A DNA stretch of 32,634 bases, from positions 1 to 32,634 of the forward strand of contig JAAWQS010000030.1 in assembly GCA_022800665.1 (NCBI GenBank), read 5' to 3'. Position 1 is the stretch's first letter, and each line of letters begins with the position of its first letter. Below, piece after piece: positions 6,055 to 17,552 of the stretch. Under the pieces are notes generated by a model, which ran no database searches, was not told the DNA's origin, and was given only the letters and a program-made list of their open reading frames with translations. The DNA is from Oscillospiraceae bacterium. GTDB taxonomy: Bacteria > Bacillota > Clostridia > Oscillospirales > Oscillospiraceae. A program made the translations under genes and the position numbers.

Positions 6055-7857
6055 TTATTCATCCAGTTTCAGCACCGCCATAAACGCCTCCGTGGGCAGC
6101 TGCACCGTGCCCAGGTTGCGCATCTTCTTCTTGCCCTCCTTCTGCTTCTCCAGCAGCTTTTTCTTCCGGGTGATATCGCCGCCGTAGCACTTGGCCAGCA
6201 CGTCCTTACGCATAGCCTTTACCGTCTCCCTGGCAATAATGCGCCCGCCGATGGCGGCCTGCACCGGCACCTCGAACAGCTGCCGGGGAATATTCTCCTT
6301 CAGCTTCTCGCACAGCCGCCTCGCCCTGGGATACGCCTTGTCCCGGTGGGCAATAAAGCTCAGGGCGTCCACCTGGTCGCCGTTGAGCAGCAGGTCCACC
6401 TTTACCAGATCGCTGGGCCGGTAGCCGCTCAGCTCGTAGTCCAGGGAGGCGTAGCCCTTGGTGTGGGCCTTCAGGGTGTCGAAGAAATCGTAGATAATCT
6501 CGTTCAGGGGCATCTGATAGTGCAGCTCCACCAGATGGGTGTCCAGATACTGCATGTCCTTGAATTCCCCCCGGCGGTCCTGACAAAGAGGCATGATATT
6601 GCCCACGTACTCATTTGGTGTTATAATAGAGACCTTCACATAGGGCTCCTGGGCCTCGGCAATGGCGCTGGGGTCGGGGTAGTTGTGGGGGTTGTCCACG
6701 TCCACATGGGAGCCGTCGGTCCGGGTGACCTTGTAGATGACGGAGGGCAGGGTGGTGATGAGGTCCAGGTCAAACTCCCGCTCCAGCCGCTCCTGGATGA
6801 CCTCCGTGTGGAGCATTCCCAGGAAGCCGCACCGGAATCCGAAGCCCAGCGCCACAGAGCTCTCCGGCTCGAAGGTGAGGGAGGCGTCGTTCAGCTGCAA
6901 TTTCTCCAGCGCCTCCCGCAGATCCGGATACTTGCTGCCGTCCTCGGTGTACACGCCGCAGTAGACCATGGGCTGGGCCTTGCGGTAGCCGGGGAGGGGC
7001 TGGGCCGCCGGAGCCTCGCTGCTGGTAATGGTGTCGCCCACCTCGGTGTCCCGCACGTTTTTGATGGACGCGGTGAAGTAGCCCACCTGTCCCGCCTGGA
7101 GCTGCTCGCAGGGCTCGTAGCCCAGGGGCCGCAGGAAACCGCACTCCAGAATCTGGTATTCCGCCCCCGATGCCATCATGCGGATGGGCATACCCTTTTT
7201 GATGGCGCCGTCGATGATGCGGAAATAGACGATGACCCCCTTGTAGGCGTCGTAATAGCTGTCAAAAATCAACGCCCGCAGGGGAGCGGCGGGGTCCCCC
7301 GCAGGGGCGGGGATATTCTGCACCACGTCCTCCAGCACGGCGGGAATGTTCAGTCCCACCTTAGCGGAAATCTCCGGCGCGTCCATGGCCGGGATGCCGA
7401 TGATGTCCTCGATCTCGTGCTTGACCTTCTCCGGGTCCGCGGCGGGCAGGTCGATCTTGTTGATGACGGGGCGGATCTCCAGGTCGTTGTCCAGGGCCAG
7501 ATATGTGTTGGCCAGGGTCTGGGCCTCGATGCCCTGGCTGGCGTCCACCACCAATACCGCGCCCTCGCAGGCCGCCAGGGACCGGCTGACCTCATAGTTG
7601 AAGTCCACATGGCCGGGGGTGTCGATGAGGTTGAGGGTGTAGGTCTCCCCGTCTGCGGCCTGGTAGTCCAGGGTCACGGCGCGGGCCTTGATAGTGATGC
7701 CCCGCTCCCGCTCCAGGTCCATGTTGTCCAGAAGCTGGTTCTCCATCTCCCGGTCGGACACCGCCCCGCACACCTCCAGAATGCGGTCGGCCAGGGTGGA
7801 TTTTCCGTGGTCTATATGGGCGATAATCGAAAAATTCCGAATTCTTTTCTGATCCAT
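6055..7857 (-). CDS. lepA: Elongation factor 4 (LepA), ribosome back-translocating GTPase
   Basis: LepA is a translational GTPase that acts on the ribosome and helps in initiation or back-translocation under stress. The protein has 600 residues, full length. The GTPase motifs are AHIDHGKST (G1), DTPGHVDF (G3) and NKIDLP (G4). The EF-G-like domains and the LepA-specific C-terminal domain follow, ending in a Lys-rich stretch ([16 protein letters not shown]) typical of the family. The start is ATG 7857 with AAGGGA upstream. It follows the XRE regulator by 35 bp and precedes the DegV gene by 33 bp, so one transcript could carry all four genes from the promoter at 8604-8632. Confidence 0.97.
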
Positions 7858-13286: not shown

Positions 13287-13327
13287 AGAGCAAAGGCCGG
13301 CCTCCTGATGACCGGCCTTTGCCCGCT
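13287..13327. terminator. Bidirectional terminator between nth and the cyclase gene
   Basis: CAAAGGCCGG (13291-13300) pairs with CCGGCCTTTG (13312-13321) around an 11-nt loop. Flanking GATAGAG and CTCTATC can extend the stem beyond an internal bulge. T tracts are short. Confidence 0.7.
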
Positions 13328-15136
13328 CTATCCAATAATCTCATCCAGGGTGAGGATCTCAAAGCCCTCTTTCTTTCCCTTCAGCTTGATGGTATCCCCC
13401 AAAGATGTGGTGCGGATGCGGCCCTCCAGGGCGTCCGCCACCGCGCGGGATATGTAGATTGTGCCGCCCGGCGCGTTGGCCTCCAGGCGGGCGGAGGTGT
13501 TGACCGTATCCCCGATGGCTGTGTAGTCCATGCGCTGGGGAGACCCGATGTTGCCCACAACCGCTTCCCCCACGTGTACGCCGATTCCAAAGGATACCGT
13601 GCGTCCGAACTGCTCCATCAGCTCCTCAGACAACGCCTGGGACCCGCTGGCCATATCCGCCGCCGCCTGACAGGCCCGCATGATATAGTCCTCCTGGGGC
13701 AGCGGCGCACCCCAGAAGGCCATGGCCGCGTCGCCTACGAATTTATCCAGCGTGCCGCCGTTTTTCAGGATGCAGTCCGCAATCAGGGTCAGGTACCGGT
13801 TCAGAATCGCAACCACCTGGGGCGGCTCCAGCATCTCCGACATGGTGGTAAACCCGCGCACGTCCACAAACAGCACGGCAATGGTGGTCAGCTTGCCGCC
13901 CAGCTCCAGGGCCTCGGTCCCCTCTTTGAGAATTTCGTTGACGATCTCCGGGGCGACGTACCGCTTGAAGGTATTAGTGACCTGCCGCCGCTCCGCCGCC
14001 GCCTGGATGTAGTTCACCGCCAGACAGCCCGCGTACAGAACCGTCACCCCCACCGGAATCCACAGCACATGCAGCGCCCAGCCCGCCTGGTACAGCACGG
14101 CGCACAGTCCGATCCAGCCGCCGCAGAGCACAGCCCACAACGCCGTTGCCGCCAGCACCCTGCGCCGCCAGAAGCCCCACATGCCCAGCAGCAGCGCTGC
14201 AAACAGGACCGCCAGCTGCAGGCCGTCCCCGGCCTCCTGCTTGTACTCCCCCCACAGCAGCGCCTGCACCGCGTTGGCCTGGAACTCCATGCCGAACATC
14301 TGCCGGGCATGGTCGATGGCCGACACATAGCTGTCCTGCAGGCCGATGGTATACGGTCCGATAAAGACCACCTTTCCCGCGAAATACTCCGGGTCAATGT
14401 CCCCGTTAATCAGGTCCACAATGGAAATGGACTCGTCAAAATCCCCCGGCATACCGCAGAACGGCATATACCAGAAGTTCCGTCCGTCCACCGGCGGCAG
14501 CGTTACCGGACCCAAGTCCCAATAGTCGGTGTACATCTGCGCCAGAGCCAGGGCCATGGAGGGCATCTCCCTGCCGTCCGGCGTGGTGTAGCGCAGGAGA
14601 TGGTGGCGGAGAATGCCGTCCTTGTCCAGCATGGCGTTGATGTGTCCCTGTGTGGTTACAGAGCGCAGGGCCTGGTACGGCTCCTCAAAATTCAGGATGG
14701 AAAAATCCTTCAGGTAGAAGCTCCCATCCCCGTCCTCCACAGCCGCCGTGCCGAACTGGGACAAACAGGCGGTTACGACGTTTCCGTACCGGCCCGCCGC
14801 ATCCGCCAGCCGCTGGTCCCACTCCGGCTCTGATTCCCCCGAATAGAGCACGTCGATGCCAATAGCCGCCGGGCGGCAGTCCTCCGACTGGTTCAGCGCG
14901 TCCAGCGCCTGCGCCATAATTTCGCGGGTCCACTGGCCGTATGGGCCAAGCTCGTCAATGGCCCGGTCGTCGATGCCTACCAGCAGCACTTCGCCGTCTG
15001 TGGCGGCCCGGCTCTGGTAAAGGGCGTCGGAAGCCGCGTAGTCCGCCGTGTCCAGCGCGCCCATCCACACCAGGGCCGTCAGGACCGAGGCCGACAACAG
15101 CGAGACCAGAATGATACGGGACCTTTGCTTCTGCAT
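13328..15136 (-). CDS. CHASE2 sensor adenylate cyclase, class III
   Basis: This is a membrane sensor that probably makes cAMP. The protein has 602 residues: an N-terminal helix (about 8-27), an extracellular CHASE2 domain (30-300, with GIDDRAI and AGKVVFIG), three transmembrane helices (about 305-375), then a class III cyclase domain (415-590). Visible catalytic residues are metal-binding D425 (FVDVRGFT) and D469 (KFVGDA), adenine-site K465 and T539, and transition-state N546 and R550 (NTSAR). The Lys/Thr pair is typical of bacterial class IIIb adenylate cyclases, several of which respond to bicarbonate. The ribosome site AGGAGG lies 9 nt before ATG 15136. It is third in the operon with the HD-GYP-like and hydrolase genes. 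Confidence 0.92.
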   Translation of the reverse strand: MQKQRSRIILVSLLSASVLTALVWMGALDTADYAASDALYQSRAATDGEVLLVGIDDRAIDELGPYGQWTREIMAQALDALNQSEDCRPAAIGIDVLYSGESEPEWDQRLADAAGRYGNVVTACLSQFGTAAVEDGDGSFYLKDFSILNFEEPYQALRSVTTQGHINAMLDKDGILRHHLLRYTTPDGREMPSMALALAQMYTDYWDLGPVTLPPVDGRNFWYMPFCGMPGDFDESISIVDLINGDIDPEYFAGKVVFIGPYTIGLQDSYVSAIDHARQMFGMEFQANAVQALLWGEYKQEAGDGLQLAVLFAALLLGMWGFWRRRVLAATALWAVLCGGWIGLCAVLYQAGWALHVLWIPVGVTVLYAGCLAVNYIQAAAERRQVTNTFKRYVAPEIVNEILKEGTEALELGGKLTTIAVLFVDVRGFTTMSEMLEPPQVVAILNRYLTLIADCILKNGGTLDKFVGDAAMAFWGAPLPQEDYIMRACQAAADMASGSQALSEELMEQFGRTVSFGIGVHVGEAVVGNIGSPQRMDYTAIGDTVNTSARLEANAPGGTIYISRAVADALEGRIRTTSLGDTIKLKGKKEGFEILTLDEIIG

Positions 15137-15178
15137 ATGCGTTCTCCTCCTGTGTTGGTTTTGCGGGAAAAAAGGGAC

Positions 15179-16660
15179 TCAGGCCGGAGGGCTCTCCGGG
15201 TTTTCCCAGCACCGGCTCTCGATAAACAGCTTTGTCAGCTGCGGGTCCAGCTTCCCCTCCTTCTCCGCCATAATGGTCAGAATATGGAGGCCCTTTTCAA
15301 TGGGCATACCGGGTTTGTAGGGCCTGTCGTCCGCCACCAGGGCGTCGAAAATATCCAGTATGCTGATAATGCGCACTTCCATGGGAATTTCATCACCGGA
15401 GAGGTGGTTGGGATAGCCGCTGCCGTTGAGCATTTCATGGTGGGACGACGCCCACTGGCGGACATGGGACAGCTCCTCGGAAAACTCAATCTGACTGAGC
15501 AGCTTCCCTGTGACCACCACGTGCTCCTCCATGACCGTCCGCTCCCCGTCAGAGAGGGTCCCCTTGCGGATGGAGAGCATGGCGTACTCCTCCGGCGTTA
15601 TCCAGGGCTGCTCGCAGCCGTTGGAATCCATGTATGTCCGTCTGCTCAGCGCGTCCAGCTCTGCCAGCCGCTCGTCCGTGACAAAGCCGCAGCCGTTGAC
15701 GGCGTCCACCAGGGTCCGGGCGTCCTGAGCGGCCCGGCAGAGCGCGTCCTTTTCCGCCGCCGTGATCTGCCCGGAGAGCAGCTGAATCTCCCCCCGCAGG
15801 CGGATGACCTCCAGGCGGTGGACAAAATCGCTGTACTGCTCCGGCAGAAGCCGGTGCATCTTGTTCATAACCTCCAGGGGCGTGACCAGCTTGCCGATGT
15901 CGTGGAGCCATACGCTCATGAGCACCTCCTCTTTGTGGCTTGGGGTGAAGGGGATGTCCTCTCCGGCGGCAATGGCGCGCTGGTTGAGAAAGTCCAGGAA
16001 CCGGTCGCCGTACATGGCCATGTGGCGGGTGTGGCTGCCGTTGTATGGGGTCCTCTCGTCTACGGCGGAGGACATGACCTTGACAAAGGAGTGGAAAAGG
16101 TTCTTGATCTGCTGGATATAGCGGACGTTCTGCACCGTGATCGCCGCCTGGGAGGCCACGGACTCCACCGCCAGCACGATCTCGTCCTCAAAAGGGATGA
16201 CGTTCCCCTCCTCGTCCTGGGCGTTGATGAGCTGCAGGACGCCGATCTTGCCCCCCTCCCGGTTCCGCATCGGCACGACAATCATAGACTGGGTGTGGTA
16301 GCCGGTGATGGCGTCGTAGCGCATGGGGCCGGTGAGGTCGTACTCCGTGCAGTGGTAGGCGTCCTCCACCCGGATGGTCTTGTTGTCCAGCAGGGCCAGG
16401 GCGCATACGCTCTCCCTGGTCACGGCCACCGGCGGCAGGCCGCAGTCCGACCCGTCCCCGCCGGAGTAGGTATTCATGGTGTTATTGCGCATGATTTTGA
16501 AGTGCAGCGCCCCGTTCTCCAGCAGATACAGGGTACCGGCGTCGCAGTTGGACAGCTCCATCACGCACAGCAGGATTCGTTCCAGCAGACGGTTGTAGTT
16601 CCGTTCGGCGGAGAGGGACACGCCCACCTCCAGAAACATCCTGAATTTCTCTTCTCTCAT
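15179..16660 (-). CDS. GAF plus HD-GYP-like phosphohydrolase
   Basis: The protein has 493 residues. A GAF ligand-binding domain covers about 18-180 (VVPMRNREGGKIGVLQLIN), a linking helix 180-200, and an HD-GYP-like domain 200-480. Visible metal-site motifs are H209/H213 region (GSHTRH), HD at 253-254 (WLHDIGKL), HHE at 407-409 and D436-D439 (ILDIFDAL), followed by DRPYKP. The signature loop reads NGSGYP rather than DGxGYP. About 150 residues separate HDIGK from HHE, more than in standard c-di-GMP phosphodiesterases. The substrate could be a cyclic di- or mononucleotide. The start ATGA overlaps the hydrolase stop by 4 nt, so translation is coupled. The cyclase gene follows after 42 bp. Confidence 0.88.
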   Translation of the reverse strand: MREEKFRMFLEVGVSLSAERNYNRLLERILLCVMELSNCDAGTLYLLENGALHFKIMRNNTMNTYSGGDGSDCGLPPVAVTRESVCALALLDNKTIRVEDAYHCTEYDLTGPMRYDAITGYHTQSMIVVPMRNREGGKIGVLQLINAQDEEGNVIPFEDEIVLAVESVASQAAITVQNVRYIQQIKNLFHSFVKVMSSAVDERTPYNGSHTRHMAMYGDRFLDFLNQRAIAAGEDIPFTPSHKEEVLMSVWLHDIGKLVTPLEVMNKMHRLLPEQYSDFVHRLEVIRLRGEIQLLSGQITAAEKDALCRAAQDARTLVDAVNGCGFVTDERLAELDALSRRTYMDSNGCEQPWITPEEYAMLSIRKGTLSDGERTVMEEHVVVTGKLLSQIEFSEELSHVRQWASSHHEMLNGSGYPNHLSGDEIPMEVRIISILDIFDALVADDRPYKPGMPIEKGLHILTIMAEKEGKLDPQLTKLFIESRCWENPESPPA

Positions 16661-17463
16661 ACGAGCGCCTCCATGTACTCGCGGGCAAAACAGACCCCCG
16701 GCCCTGCCGCCAGACGTTCCTGCTCCCGCAGAAAATCATCGGTATAAGATTGATTATAGTGTGTCATCAGAATCAGTCCGGCCCCGGCCTCCCGGCCCAG
16801 CTCCACCCCCTGCTCCCAGGAGGAGTGTCCCCAGCCGGGATGCCGCGCCAGGTCCTGACTGGTAAAGTTGGCGTCCCAGACCAGCGCCCCCGCCCCGCGG
16901 CAGAACGCCGCCAGCCGGGGCCGAAGGGCGTCCGTCAGCTCGCAGTCCAGTGCGTAAGCCACGCTCCGCGTTCCGGAGTCCAGCCGGTACAGCAGGCTCA
17001 GATTGGGATGGTTGCCCCGCATGGTGCGGACCGTCCGCCCGCCGGAGAGGGGGACCGTCTGGTCCGGCCCGATCTCGTGGATGGCGATACCGGCCTTGAA
17101 GTCGCTGAAGCCCACCGGCCAATAGGGCGGGCCGACAATGGCCTCCAGCTGCCGCTGGAAGGACACGCCGCCGCGGGCTTCCCCGTAGAGATGGACCTCC
17201 GCGCCGGGGGTGTGGAACAGCGGAAACGTGTACAGGCCCAGCAGGTGGTCGATGTGGACATGGCTGATGAAGATGTGGACAGGACAGCTGCCGGACAGCT
17301 GTCCGGCTAAAGCCAGCAGACCGCTGCCTGCGTCAAAGACCACCAGGTCTCCCGCCCCGCAGTCCACGGATACGCAGGAGGTATTGCCTCCATAGTCCAG
17401 GAAATTACGGGACGGCGCAGGCATCGAACCGCGTACGCCCCATATGTTCAGTTTCCAATCCAT
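16657..17463 (-). CDS. Metallo-beta-lactamase-fold hydrolase
   Basis: The protein has 268 residues from ATG 17463 (AGGAGG just upstream); the frame is open further back but without a ribosome site. The start IWGVRGSMPAPSRNFLDYGG is typical of a family often found beside signalling proteins. The metal motif HVHIDH is at 68-73, with further ligands likely at H152 (GNHPN), D173 (ALDCE) and H235 (MTHYNQ). The family includes phosphodiesterases and RNase Z-like enzymes. Next to a cyclase gene, a cyclic-nucleotide phosphodiesterase role is attractive but unproven. It is first in the three-gene operon. Confidence 0.87.
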   Translation of the reverse strand: MDWKLNIWGVRGSMPAPSRNFLDYGGNTSCVSVDCGAGDLVVFDAGSGLLALAGQLSGSCPVHIFISHVHIDHLLGLYTFPLFHTPGAEVHLYGEARGGVSFQRQLEAIVGPPYWPVGFSDFKAGIAIHEIGPDQTVPLSGGRTVRTMRGNHPNLSLLYRLDSGTRSVAYALDCELTDALRPRLAAFCRGAGALVWDANFTSQDLARHPGWGHSSWEQGVELGREAGAGLILMTHYNQSYTDDFLREQERLAAGPGVCFAREYMEALV

Positions 17464-17523: not shown

Positions 17524-17552
17524 ATTATAATGGTATACCTGGAAAAAAGCAA
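17524..17552 (-). promoter_or_regulatory. Promoter of the cyclic-nucleotide signalling operon
   Basis: On the minus strand TTGCTT and a perfect TATAAT are 17 bp apart, about 60 bp before the hydrolase start codon. Confidence 0.82.

Follow-up and report, generated by a model that had tools for sequence, protein, structure and literature searches.

Background

Adenylate cyclases with a CHASE2 sensor domain have been reported in association with cell-surface proteins. According to the accessible part of one account, the Campylobacterota have a gene cluster of a CHASE2 adenylate cyclase, a phosphodiesterase (PDE) said to hydrolyse cyclic AMP (cAMP), a FecR protein and a tetratricopeptide-repeat (TPR) protein, and this cluster is said to spread by transfer (PMC9239204). 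Similarly, the CHASE2 cyclases CyaD1, CyaD2 and CyaK of Sinorhizobium meliloti are described as raising cAMP on an outside signal via the surface partner NsrA, and the FecR protein SMc02177 is given among the targets of Clr (PMC5498481, PMC13001267). In a Burkholderia operon a FecR surface protein is reported beside a CHASE2 histidine kinase (PMC5192318). A connection between cAMP and cyclic di-GMP (c-di-GMP) has also been described: a review lists Tlr0485 of Thermosynechococcus, a GAF-HD-GYP protein, as a cAMP-responsive PDE and Lcd1 as a cAMP-responsive GAF-GGDEF protein (PMC8846402), and Bd1971 of Bdellovibrio, a cNMP-EAL protein, is reported to link cAMP to c-di-GMP (PMC6717892). Moreover, the sequence [T/S]HXHXDH within a metallo-beta-lactamase (MBL) fold is presented as the motif of the atypical class-II PDEs YhfI, Rv1339 and CpdA (PMC9293780). 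Here we analyse an operon of an Oscillospiraceae bacterium that encodes an MBL-fold hydrolase, a GAF-HD-GYP protein and a CHASE2-class III cyclase. It lies in a stretch of 32,634 nucleotides, the whole of which is referred to as the window.

We consider it probable, at roughly 0.58, that the operon relays a surface signal via cAMP to a GAF-gated breakdown of c-di-GMP, with the MBL protein as the putative eraser. More specifically, the CHASE2 cyclase, probably together with cell-surface proteins that carry FecR, NHL or S-layer homology (SLH) domains, would sense an envelope or outside signal and make cAMP; for this step the catalytic residues are observed, and the activity and the signal are what we infer. 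Binding of cAMP to the GAF domain would then turn on the HD-GYP domain, which would degrade c-di-GMP, and hydrolysis of cAMP by the MBL protein would reset the switch.

Predicted maker, reader and output

In class III cyclases two Asp residues bind metal, a Lys and a Thr recognise adenine, and an Asn and an Arg serve the transition state; the Lys/Thr pattern is that of the ATP-using class IIIb enzymes. The cyclase domain of the window can be aligned to solved cyclases, and an earlier annotation made from the letters alone (the sequence-only reading) had named six key residues in it. All six (D425, K465, D469, T539, N546 and R550) were indeed found at these positions and are invariant in 19 aligned sequences, the window's included; the retained class III residues thus support the proposed cAMP maker. 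The CHASE2 domain lies N-terminal to the cyclase domain, and hydrophobic segments are found at about residues 5-29, 304-323, 327-351 and 354-375. The protein is likely a membrane-bound, class IIIb-like adenylate cyclase and the predicted source of cAMP. A Pfam search of the genome, which is 95.4% complete, gave a single Guanylate_cyc match and no second class III cyclase.

The GAF domain had been suggested as a possible sensor of the signal, and the comparison with solved structures supports this. A profile of 11 sequences matched 21 PDB entries with E-values up to 0.01, and these comprised 19 cyclic-nucleotide PDEs, one adenylate cyclase and one GAF-HD-GYP protein, placing the domain in the cyclic-nucleotide-PDE type. 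As a single query the window's GAF-HD-GYP protein matched the GAF domains of PDE5 at 1.4e-7; single-sequence queries with two further GAF domains that this genome encodes gave no PDB match of any kind. The genome has a single cNMP-domain match (L192), a CRP/FNR relative that, by eye, is without an RSA cassette; this makes the GAF domain the best candidate for the cAMP receptor in this genome.

HD-GYP enzymes act on cyclic dinucleotides and carry the signature HHExxxGxGYP, to which HHEMLNGSGYP in the window corresponds. The residues H210, H253, D254, H380, H407, H408 and D436 are invariant in 16 aligned GAF-HD-GYP sequences. Seven of the eight metal ligands of PmGH are kept and invariant in these 16, and Tyr206 stands at the position of E185. 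The best two PDB matches, 4mcw and 5z7c, are structures of enzymes acting on cyclic dinucleotides. In view of these substrates the HD-GYP domain is more likely an output than a cAMP eraser, and the earlier proposal of signal degradation by one hydrolase or the other is not supported. The genome has three GGDEF matches, so that c-di-GMP is a sensible substrate; 3'3'-cGAMP is possible alongside it. A self-contained circuit, with both hydrolases breaking down what the cyclase makes and the GAF domain only tuning this, has in its favour the adjacency of the genes and the presence of two metal hydrolases. We regard it as highly improbable: the structurally known HD-GYP relatives (4mcw, 5z7c) act on cyclic dinucleotides, and where the HD-GYP protein is missing its place in relatives is filled by cNMP-binding readers such as CRP, not by erasers. 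On the latter ground a role of the HD-GYP domain as second cAMP eraser was rejected.

Conservation of the cassette

The sequence-only reading had hinged on the three genes being conserved together in the Oscillospiraceae; they are found together, and well beyond that family. Among 200 family genomes the CHASE2 set comprises 23, and it contains 19 of the 20 genomes with the MBL family (Fisher 1e-21), all 18 with a full-length GAF-HD-GYP protein (2e-21) and 17 of the 20 with FecR (6e-17). Relatives recovered with the GAF-HD-GYP profile (best 80 of 148) belong chiefly to the Lachnospiraceae and Oscillospiraceae, with further hosts in the Synergistaceae, Defluviitaleaceae, Fusibacter, Dethiobacter and other phyla, and a cyclase domain is visible in 52 of these 80 loci. 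A chance operon of unrelated genes could be argued from the patchy distribution within the genus, where the cassette was found in 2 of the 10 genomes listed. It was rejected, and its probability is practically nil, since the co-occurrence in the family (p about 1e-21) and the recurrence of the neighbourhood across families and phyla contradict it.

A scan of 103 loci, a tally in which some genomes are counted twice (at least L119, L120, L121 and L127, which equal G011, G057, G065 and G190), showed the preferred arrangement. When both genes are present (53 loci), the GAF-HD-GYP gene follows the MBL gene on the same strand within 100 nt in 48. The commonest orders are MBL - GAF-HD-GYP - FecR - cyclase and cyclase - TIM barrel - GAF-HD-GYP - FecR (15 loci each), and the window's order MBL - GAF-HD-GYP - cyclase is found in six. 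One locus (L051 on G086:C64, about 6127-7343) holds a decayed cassette with a fragmented cyclase and an HD-GYP gene with a stop codon.

Exchange of the predicted reader

Of 54 CHASE2-cyclase loci, 18 have within 6 kb of the cyclase only a GAF-HD-GYP gene, 23 only a gene for a cNMP-binding protein, one has both and 12 have neither (Fisher 1.2e-5). Four of the family genomes scored as neither (G071, G065, G011 and G057) have the HD-GYP and MBL genes further off or on another contig. A quick cyclase tree implies four changes between the two kinds of neighbour. The alternative readers include CRP-type regulators (13 of 17 cNMP proteins inspected by eye; Pfam agreed for both that were tested), cNMP-GGDEF and cNMP-DUF2225 proteins.

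A further alternative occurs in G196, G608 and G789, in which cyclase, MBL, FecR and NHL genes are present in a cassette without GAF-HD-GYP, and a gene for a GAF-ABC ATPase plus an FtsX permease stands directly before the MBL gene. G167, where the permease lies at a contig end, resembles these three. The GAF domain of the GAF-ABC protein matched 24 PDB entries (18 cyclic-nucleotide PDEs, one adenylate cyclase, one GAF-HD-GYP protein and four other GAF proteins) and is PDE-like as well. The alternative readers share a predicted sensor of the cyclic-nucleotide type.

Some side observations bear on the readers. A diverged type of GAF-HD-GYP, with weak profile scores, lies beside CHASE2 cyclases in other families (L209, L210, L214 and L216), and the pairing of the two may have more than one origin. 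In Gemmatimonadota, Latescibacterota and Handelsmanbacteria (L184, L187, L188 and L190) the same GAF-HD-GYP family occurs with no cyclase in view and a cNMP-binding gene about 2-3.5 kb upstream. In G008 (L048:9323-11589) the MBL gene is followed by cNMP-GGDEF and cNMP-DUF2225 genes; here cAMP may raise rather than lower c-di-GMP.

The putative eraser and its exchange

The MBL protein has H68, H70, D72, H73, H152, D173, H213 and H235 invariant in 19 sequences. Its SHVHIDH fits the [T/S]HXHXDH motif of YhfI, Rv1339 and CpdA, a fit that does not discriminate since RNase Z shares such a motif. A housekeeping RNase Z was rejected as its identity: 19 of the 20 family genomes with this MBL carry the CHASE2 set, and the protein failed the NCBIfam RNase Z cut-offs (53.6 bits versus 292.95 for TIGR02651, and others). 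The association between MBL and cyclase that the sequence-only reading relied on is upheld in the family by these same 19 genomes, and the MBL gene is absent where CHASE2 is fused to the HD-GYP domain. Overall, MBL and cyclase are strongly linked within the family and clade of the window, but not in distant CRP-type cassettes.

In one branch the place of the MBL protein is taken by a TIM-barrel protein (Pfam AP_endonuc_2, 2.1e-25) that is related to the solved TTHB071 and MJ1311 and weakly to an AP endonuclease; its aligned set of His, Asp and Glu residues resembles what we take to be the metal site of endonuclease IV. The two proteins are together in none of the best 80 of 148 loci. The 52 of these with a cyclase divide into 25 with MBL, 18 with the TIM barrel, nine with neither and none with both. 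A quick tree of 76 rows required two changes for this exchange, one of them inside the MBL clade, and within that clade L169 has the TIM-barrel gene directly before GAF-HD-GYP. Separately, L198 (G420) has an endonuclease-IV-like gene at 13868-14651, on the strand opposite to the cyclase and about 3 kb away.

CHASE2-HD-GYP fusions

Three genomes of a single genus (G176, G699 and G786) encode a direct fusion of CHASE2 to this HD-GYP domain, with no GAF and no cyclase domain. Their cassettes (L050, L248 and L249) contain no cyclase, MBL or TIM barrel, and a search of the three genomes for the MBL family found none. The same search detected it in 17 of 18 non-fusion cassette genomes, including G008 and G731 of the fusion genus; the one genome in which it was not detected, G739, is 81% complete. 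No MBL was found in G111 either, which belongs to the fusion genus and lacks the cassette. A related cyclase is absent genome-wide from G176, and for G699 and G786 the absence holds for the cassette; a search behind the fusion and same-genus counts scored at most two candidates per genome. The joint loss of maker, reader domain and eraser is what is expected of a cAMP relay whose messenger has been bypassed.

The cassette would be modular across the Bacillota: an unrelated protein whose likely function matches could stand in for the reader and, in the window's wider clade, for the eraser too, and CHASE2 can be joined directly to HD-GYP, with cyclase, GAF and MBL then missing from the cassette. 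A more general view is put forward tentatively, as a possibility that we would not bet on. The Bacillota may have a plug-in cAMP platform with a CHASE2 cyclase as core, on which readers are exchanged (CRP, cNMP-GGDEF, cNMP-DUF2225, GAF-HD-GYP and the GAF-ABC/FtsX exporter). In the gut clade the erasers may be exchanged as well, between the MBL family and the endonuclease-IV-like TIM barrel, which would be a cAMP phosphodiesterase class not recognised before, and in gut Clostridia the platform might have been rewired from transcription to c-di-GMP.

Probable surface partners

In relatives, genes for FecR-domain and NHL-repeat proteins lie between or beside the three genes. A FecR gene is near the cyclase in 34 of the 54 CHASE2-cyclase loci and in 13 of the 18 family loci, and several of these FecR/NHL neighbours have SLH or leucine-rich repeats and, by eye, starts that resemble signal peptides. 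The operon of the window itself has no FecR gene, and the two FecR matches of its genome sit on other contigs. One contig encodes a protein of 1933 residues with FecR, leucine-rich-repeat, SLH and NHL domains, the same make-up as that of the protein directly after the cyclase in L033. This CHASE2/FecR neighbourhood fits the reports, as far as accessible, of CHASE2 cyclases with surface proteins (PMC9239204, PMC5498481, PMC13001267). In L156, L254 and L259 three to four tandem FecR-domain genes stand between the HD-GYP and cyclase genes, which looks like a multiplication of the surface partner.

The make-sense-erase circuit that the sequence-only reading had envisaged was therefore partly right. 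The predicted maker, the GAF sensor and the link between MBL and cyclase are supported; the HD-GYP domain as eraser is not, and neither is self-containment, given the FecR genes near the cyclase in the family and the apparent c-di-GMP output.

Points against the proposed relay

Several observations weigh against the relay from cAMP to c-di-GMP with an MBL eraser. The main one concerns the GAF domain. The motif NKxnFx3DE is that of cyclic-nucleotide GAF domains, and in the GAF-HD-GYP family it is partly kept, with N146 and F157 present and the K and D not. In addition, Tyr206 assigns the HD-GYP domain to the Y/F subfamily; for this type, with E185 replaced, a binuclear site is predicted in the accessible part of PMC4159591. 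The degenerate GAF motif, together with the fact that the second-best PDB match, 5z7c, is a 3'3'-cGAMP-specific PDE, would fit a different set of ligands, in which the HD-GYP domain acts on another cyclic dinucleotide such as 3'3'-cGAMP or the GAF domain binds something else, and the cyclase makes cGMP or its cAMP is read elsewhere. This is improbable in view of the three GGDEF matches that could supply c-di-GMP, of the cyclase Lys and Thr, which are as in ATP-using class IIIb enzymes, and of the CRP-type readers in sister cassettes.

The neighbourhoods also contain points on this side. Of the best 80 of 148 loci 28 have no cyclase in view, 21 of them cut by a contig end and seven with full 10-kb flanks, and in L210, the sole locus with both readers, the cNMP gene is on the other strand. 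The Fisher values for co-occurrence ignore phylogeny, and the swap statistics were checked for phylogeny by two quick trees only.

The remaining points concern the eraser. The MBL profile is equally near to RNase Z (1y44, 2.7e-20) and YhfI (6kns, 4.2e-20), and the protein fails NF041851, the model of the atypical class-II PDEs, with 40 bits versus a cut-off of 400. G174 has the MBL gene plus a cyclase domain and no CHASE2 match. Among the 54 cyclase-centred loci MBL is within 6 kb in 15 and the TIM barrel in two, which argues against a general eraser role. Within the same 6 kb, a view of loci and not of whole genomes, neither is found in 20 of the 23 cNMP-only loci, and MBL is found in two of eight HD-GYP-only phylum loci. 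Because of these 20 loci we place less weight on the relay with a dedicated eraser and more on a rival in which the MBL protein clears the HD-GYP product (pGpG) or processes RNA, and the relay from cAMP to c-di-GMP has no cAMP eraser of its own. Apart from these loci, the nearness of the profile to RNase Z and the usual place of the MBL gene immediately ahead of the HD-GYP gene (48 of 53 loci) speak for this rival. It is nevertheless unlikely, though far from negligible. MBL and cyclase occur without a full-length GAF-HD-GYP protein in G008, G167 and G196 (genome-wide) and in G608 and G789 (in the cassette), and MBL is absent from the three fusions, where the HD-GYP domain stands without a cyclase.

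Layout of the locus and scope of the counts

The three genes form the group that had been described. They all lie on the minus strand; the MBL and HD-GYP genes overlap by 4 nt, and 42 nt separate the HD-GYP and cyclase genes (Table 1). The single promoter proposed for them is plausible: a perfect TATAAT precedes the MBL gene, but the -35 element (TTGCTT at 17547-17552, with a 17-nt spacer) is weak, and a consensus promoter scan listed no promoter there. Nor did the consensus scan list the inverted repeat 3' of the cyclase gene, which is perhaps a terminator shared with the endonuclease III gene. Some 11 kb from the operon, at 269-1999, the window encodes a protein of 576 residues that has InlB-type repeats plus an S-layer homology domain and for which no FecR match was reported.

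Table 1. Coordinates of the operon, its domains and flanking signals in the window
Feature	Position	Strand	Remarks
MBL-fold metallo-hydrolase gene	16657..17463	-	268 aa; Pfam Lactamase_B_2 3.9e-17
GAF-HD-GYP gene	15179..16660	-	493 aa; Pfam GAF 8.2e-11, HD_5 4.2e-28
CHASE2-class III cyclase gene	13328..15136	-	602 aa; Pfam CHASE2 2.6e-41, Guanylate_cyc 1.3e-22
GAF domain, PDE-type	16136..16591	-	Pfam residues 24-175
HD-GYP domain	15203..16105	-	long conserved insert between HD motif and next metal histidine
CHASE2 sensor domain	14183..15082	-	Pfam residues 19-318, 2.6e-41
Class III cyclase catalytic domain	13367..13888	-	Pfam residues 417-590
ATGA shared by MBL stop and HD-GYP start	16657..16660	-	4 nt
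Possible -10 box TATAAT (perfect)	17524..17529	-	ahead of MBL gene; not listed by the consensus scan
Inverted repeat, strong	about 13294..13321	.	between cyclase gene and convergent endonuclease III gene; fold z-score -4.57

For the family counts 23 of 29 cyclase matches were kept, the six dropped (G019, G022, G092, G125, G166 and G174) having the cyclase domain alone. Among those retained are G176, in which CHASE2 is fused to HD-GYP with no cyclase, as well as fragments from G083, G086 and G139. HD-GYP matches were kept with E-values below 1e-60 (18 of 96) and MBL matches in 20 of 22 cases, two at about 5e-4 being dropped. In the phylum search 37 of 54 other matching genomes were used, leaving out 17 weaker, mostly partial ones. 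These 37 loci and 19 from the family make 56, from which L109 and L226 were dropped, with no CHASE2 in view, to give 54. The cyclase loci do not include L050, which lacks a cyclase, L051, which has it in fragments, or G139, whose contig is tiny. FecR, NHL, cNMP, TIM-barrel and GAF-ABC proteins were detected with small profiles from few members, most of them checked with Pfam.

Comparison with known systems

Searches of the open-licence PMC literature turned up hardly anything on cAMP signalling among gut Clostridia and, on class III cyclases in Clostridia, only off-target papers. They gave neither activity data for the cassette proteins nor an earlier account of the conserved Clostridia operon, its reader and eraser exchanges or the bypass fusions. 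A compact conserved cassette whose maker, reader and eraser can be predicted offers a direct handle on such signalling, and would tie cAMP to c-di-GMP and to S-layer/FecR surface proteins. The natural swaps and bypass fusions serve as genetic experiments already done by nature, from which a function can be predicted for every part, including two families that are candidate cAMP phosphodiesterases.

The Campylobacterota cluster resembles the loci of the window's relatives in that a CHASE2 cyclase, a PDE and a FecR-domain surface protein are clustered. It differs in being Gram-negative, with a TPR protein included and an outer-membrane FecR protein, whereas the Clostridia relatives have SLH/NHL proteins, and no GAF-HD-GYP, MBL or endonuclease-IV-like partner is named in the accessible part of that account (PMC9239204). 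In contrast to such CHASE2 cyclase/PDE/FecR clusters, the window's operon has no FecR gene inside it. The Burkholderia operon shares a FecR gene next to a CHASE2 sensor with the window's relatives, but there CHASE2 is described as driving a histidine kinase, with no cyclic nucleotide enzyme (PMC5192318). In S. meliloti the reported output is the CRP-family transcription factor Clr, whereas in the window it would be the HD-GYP domain (PMC5498481, PMC13001267).

With YhfI, Rv1339 and CpdA the window's MBL protein shares the fold and the [T/S]HXHXDH motif, and YhfI (6kns) is among its best PDB matches (PMC9293780); it differs in its score (40 bits versus the 400-bit cut-off of NF041851) and in being encoded with a cyclase. 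Bd1971 is described with sensor and catalytic domains other than the GAF and HD-GYP domains of the window (PMC6717892). Tlr0485, which we know by description and not by sequence, has the GAF-HD-GYP architecture of the window, but the accessible part of the account states no genomic link to a CHASE2 cyclase and an MBL protein (PMC8846402). Thus, as far as these sources go, cAMP-activated GAF-HD-GYP proteins and CHASE2/PDE/FecR clusters are already known, and the mechanism proposed here has precedents.

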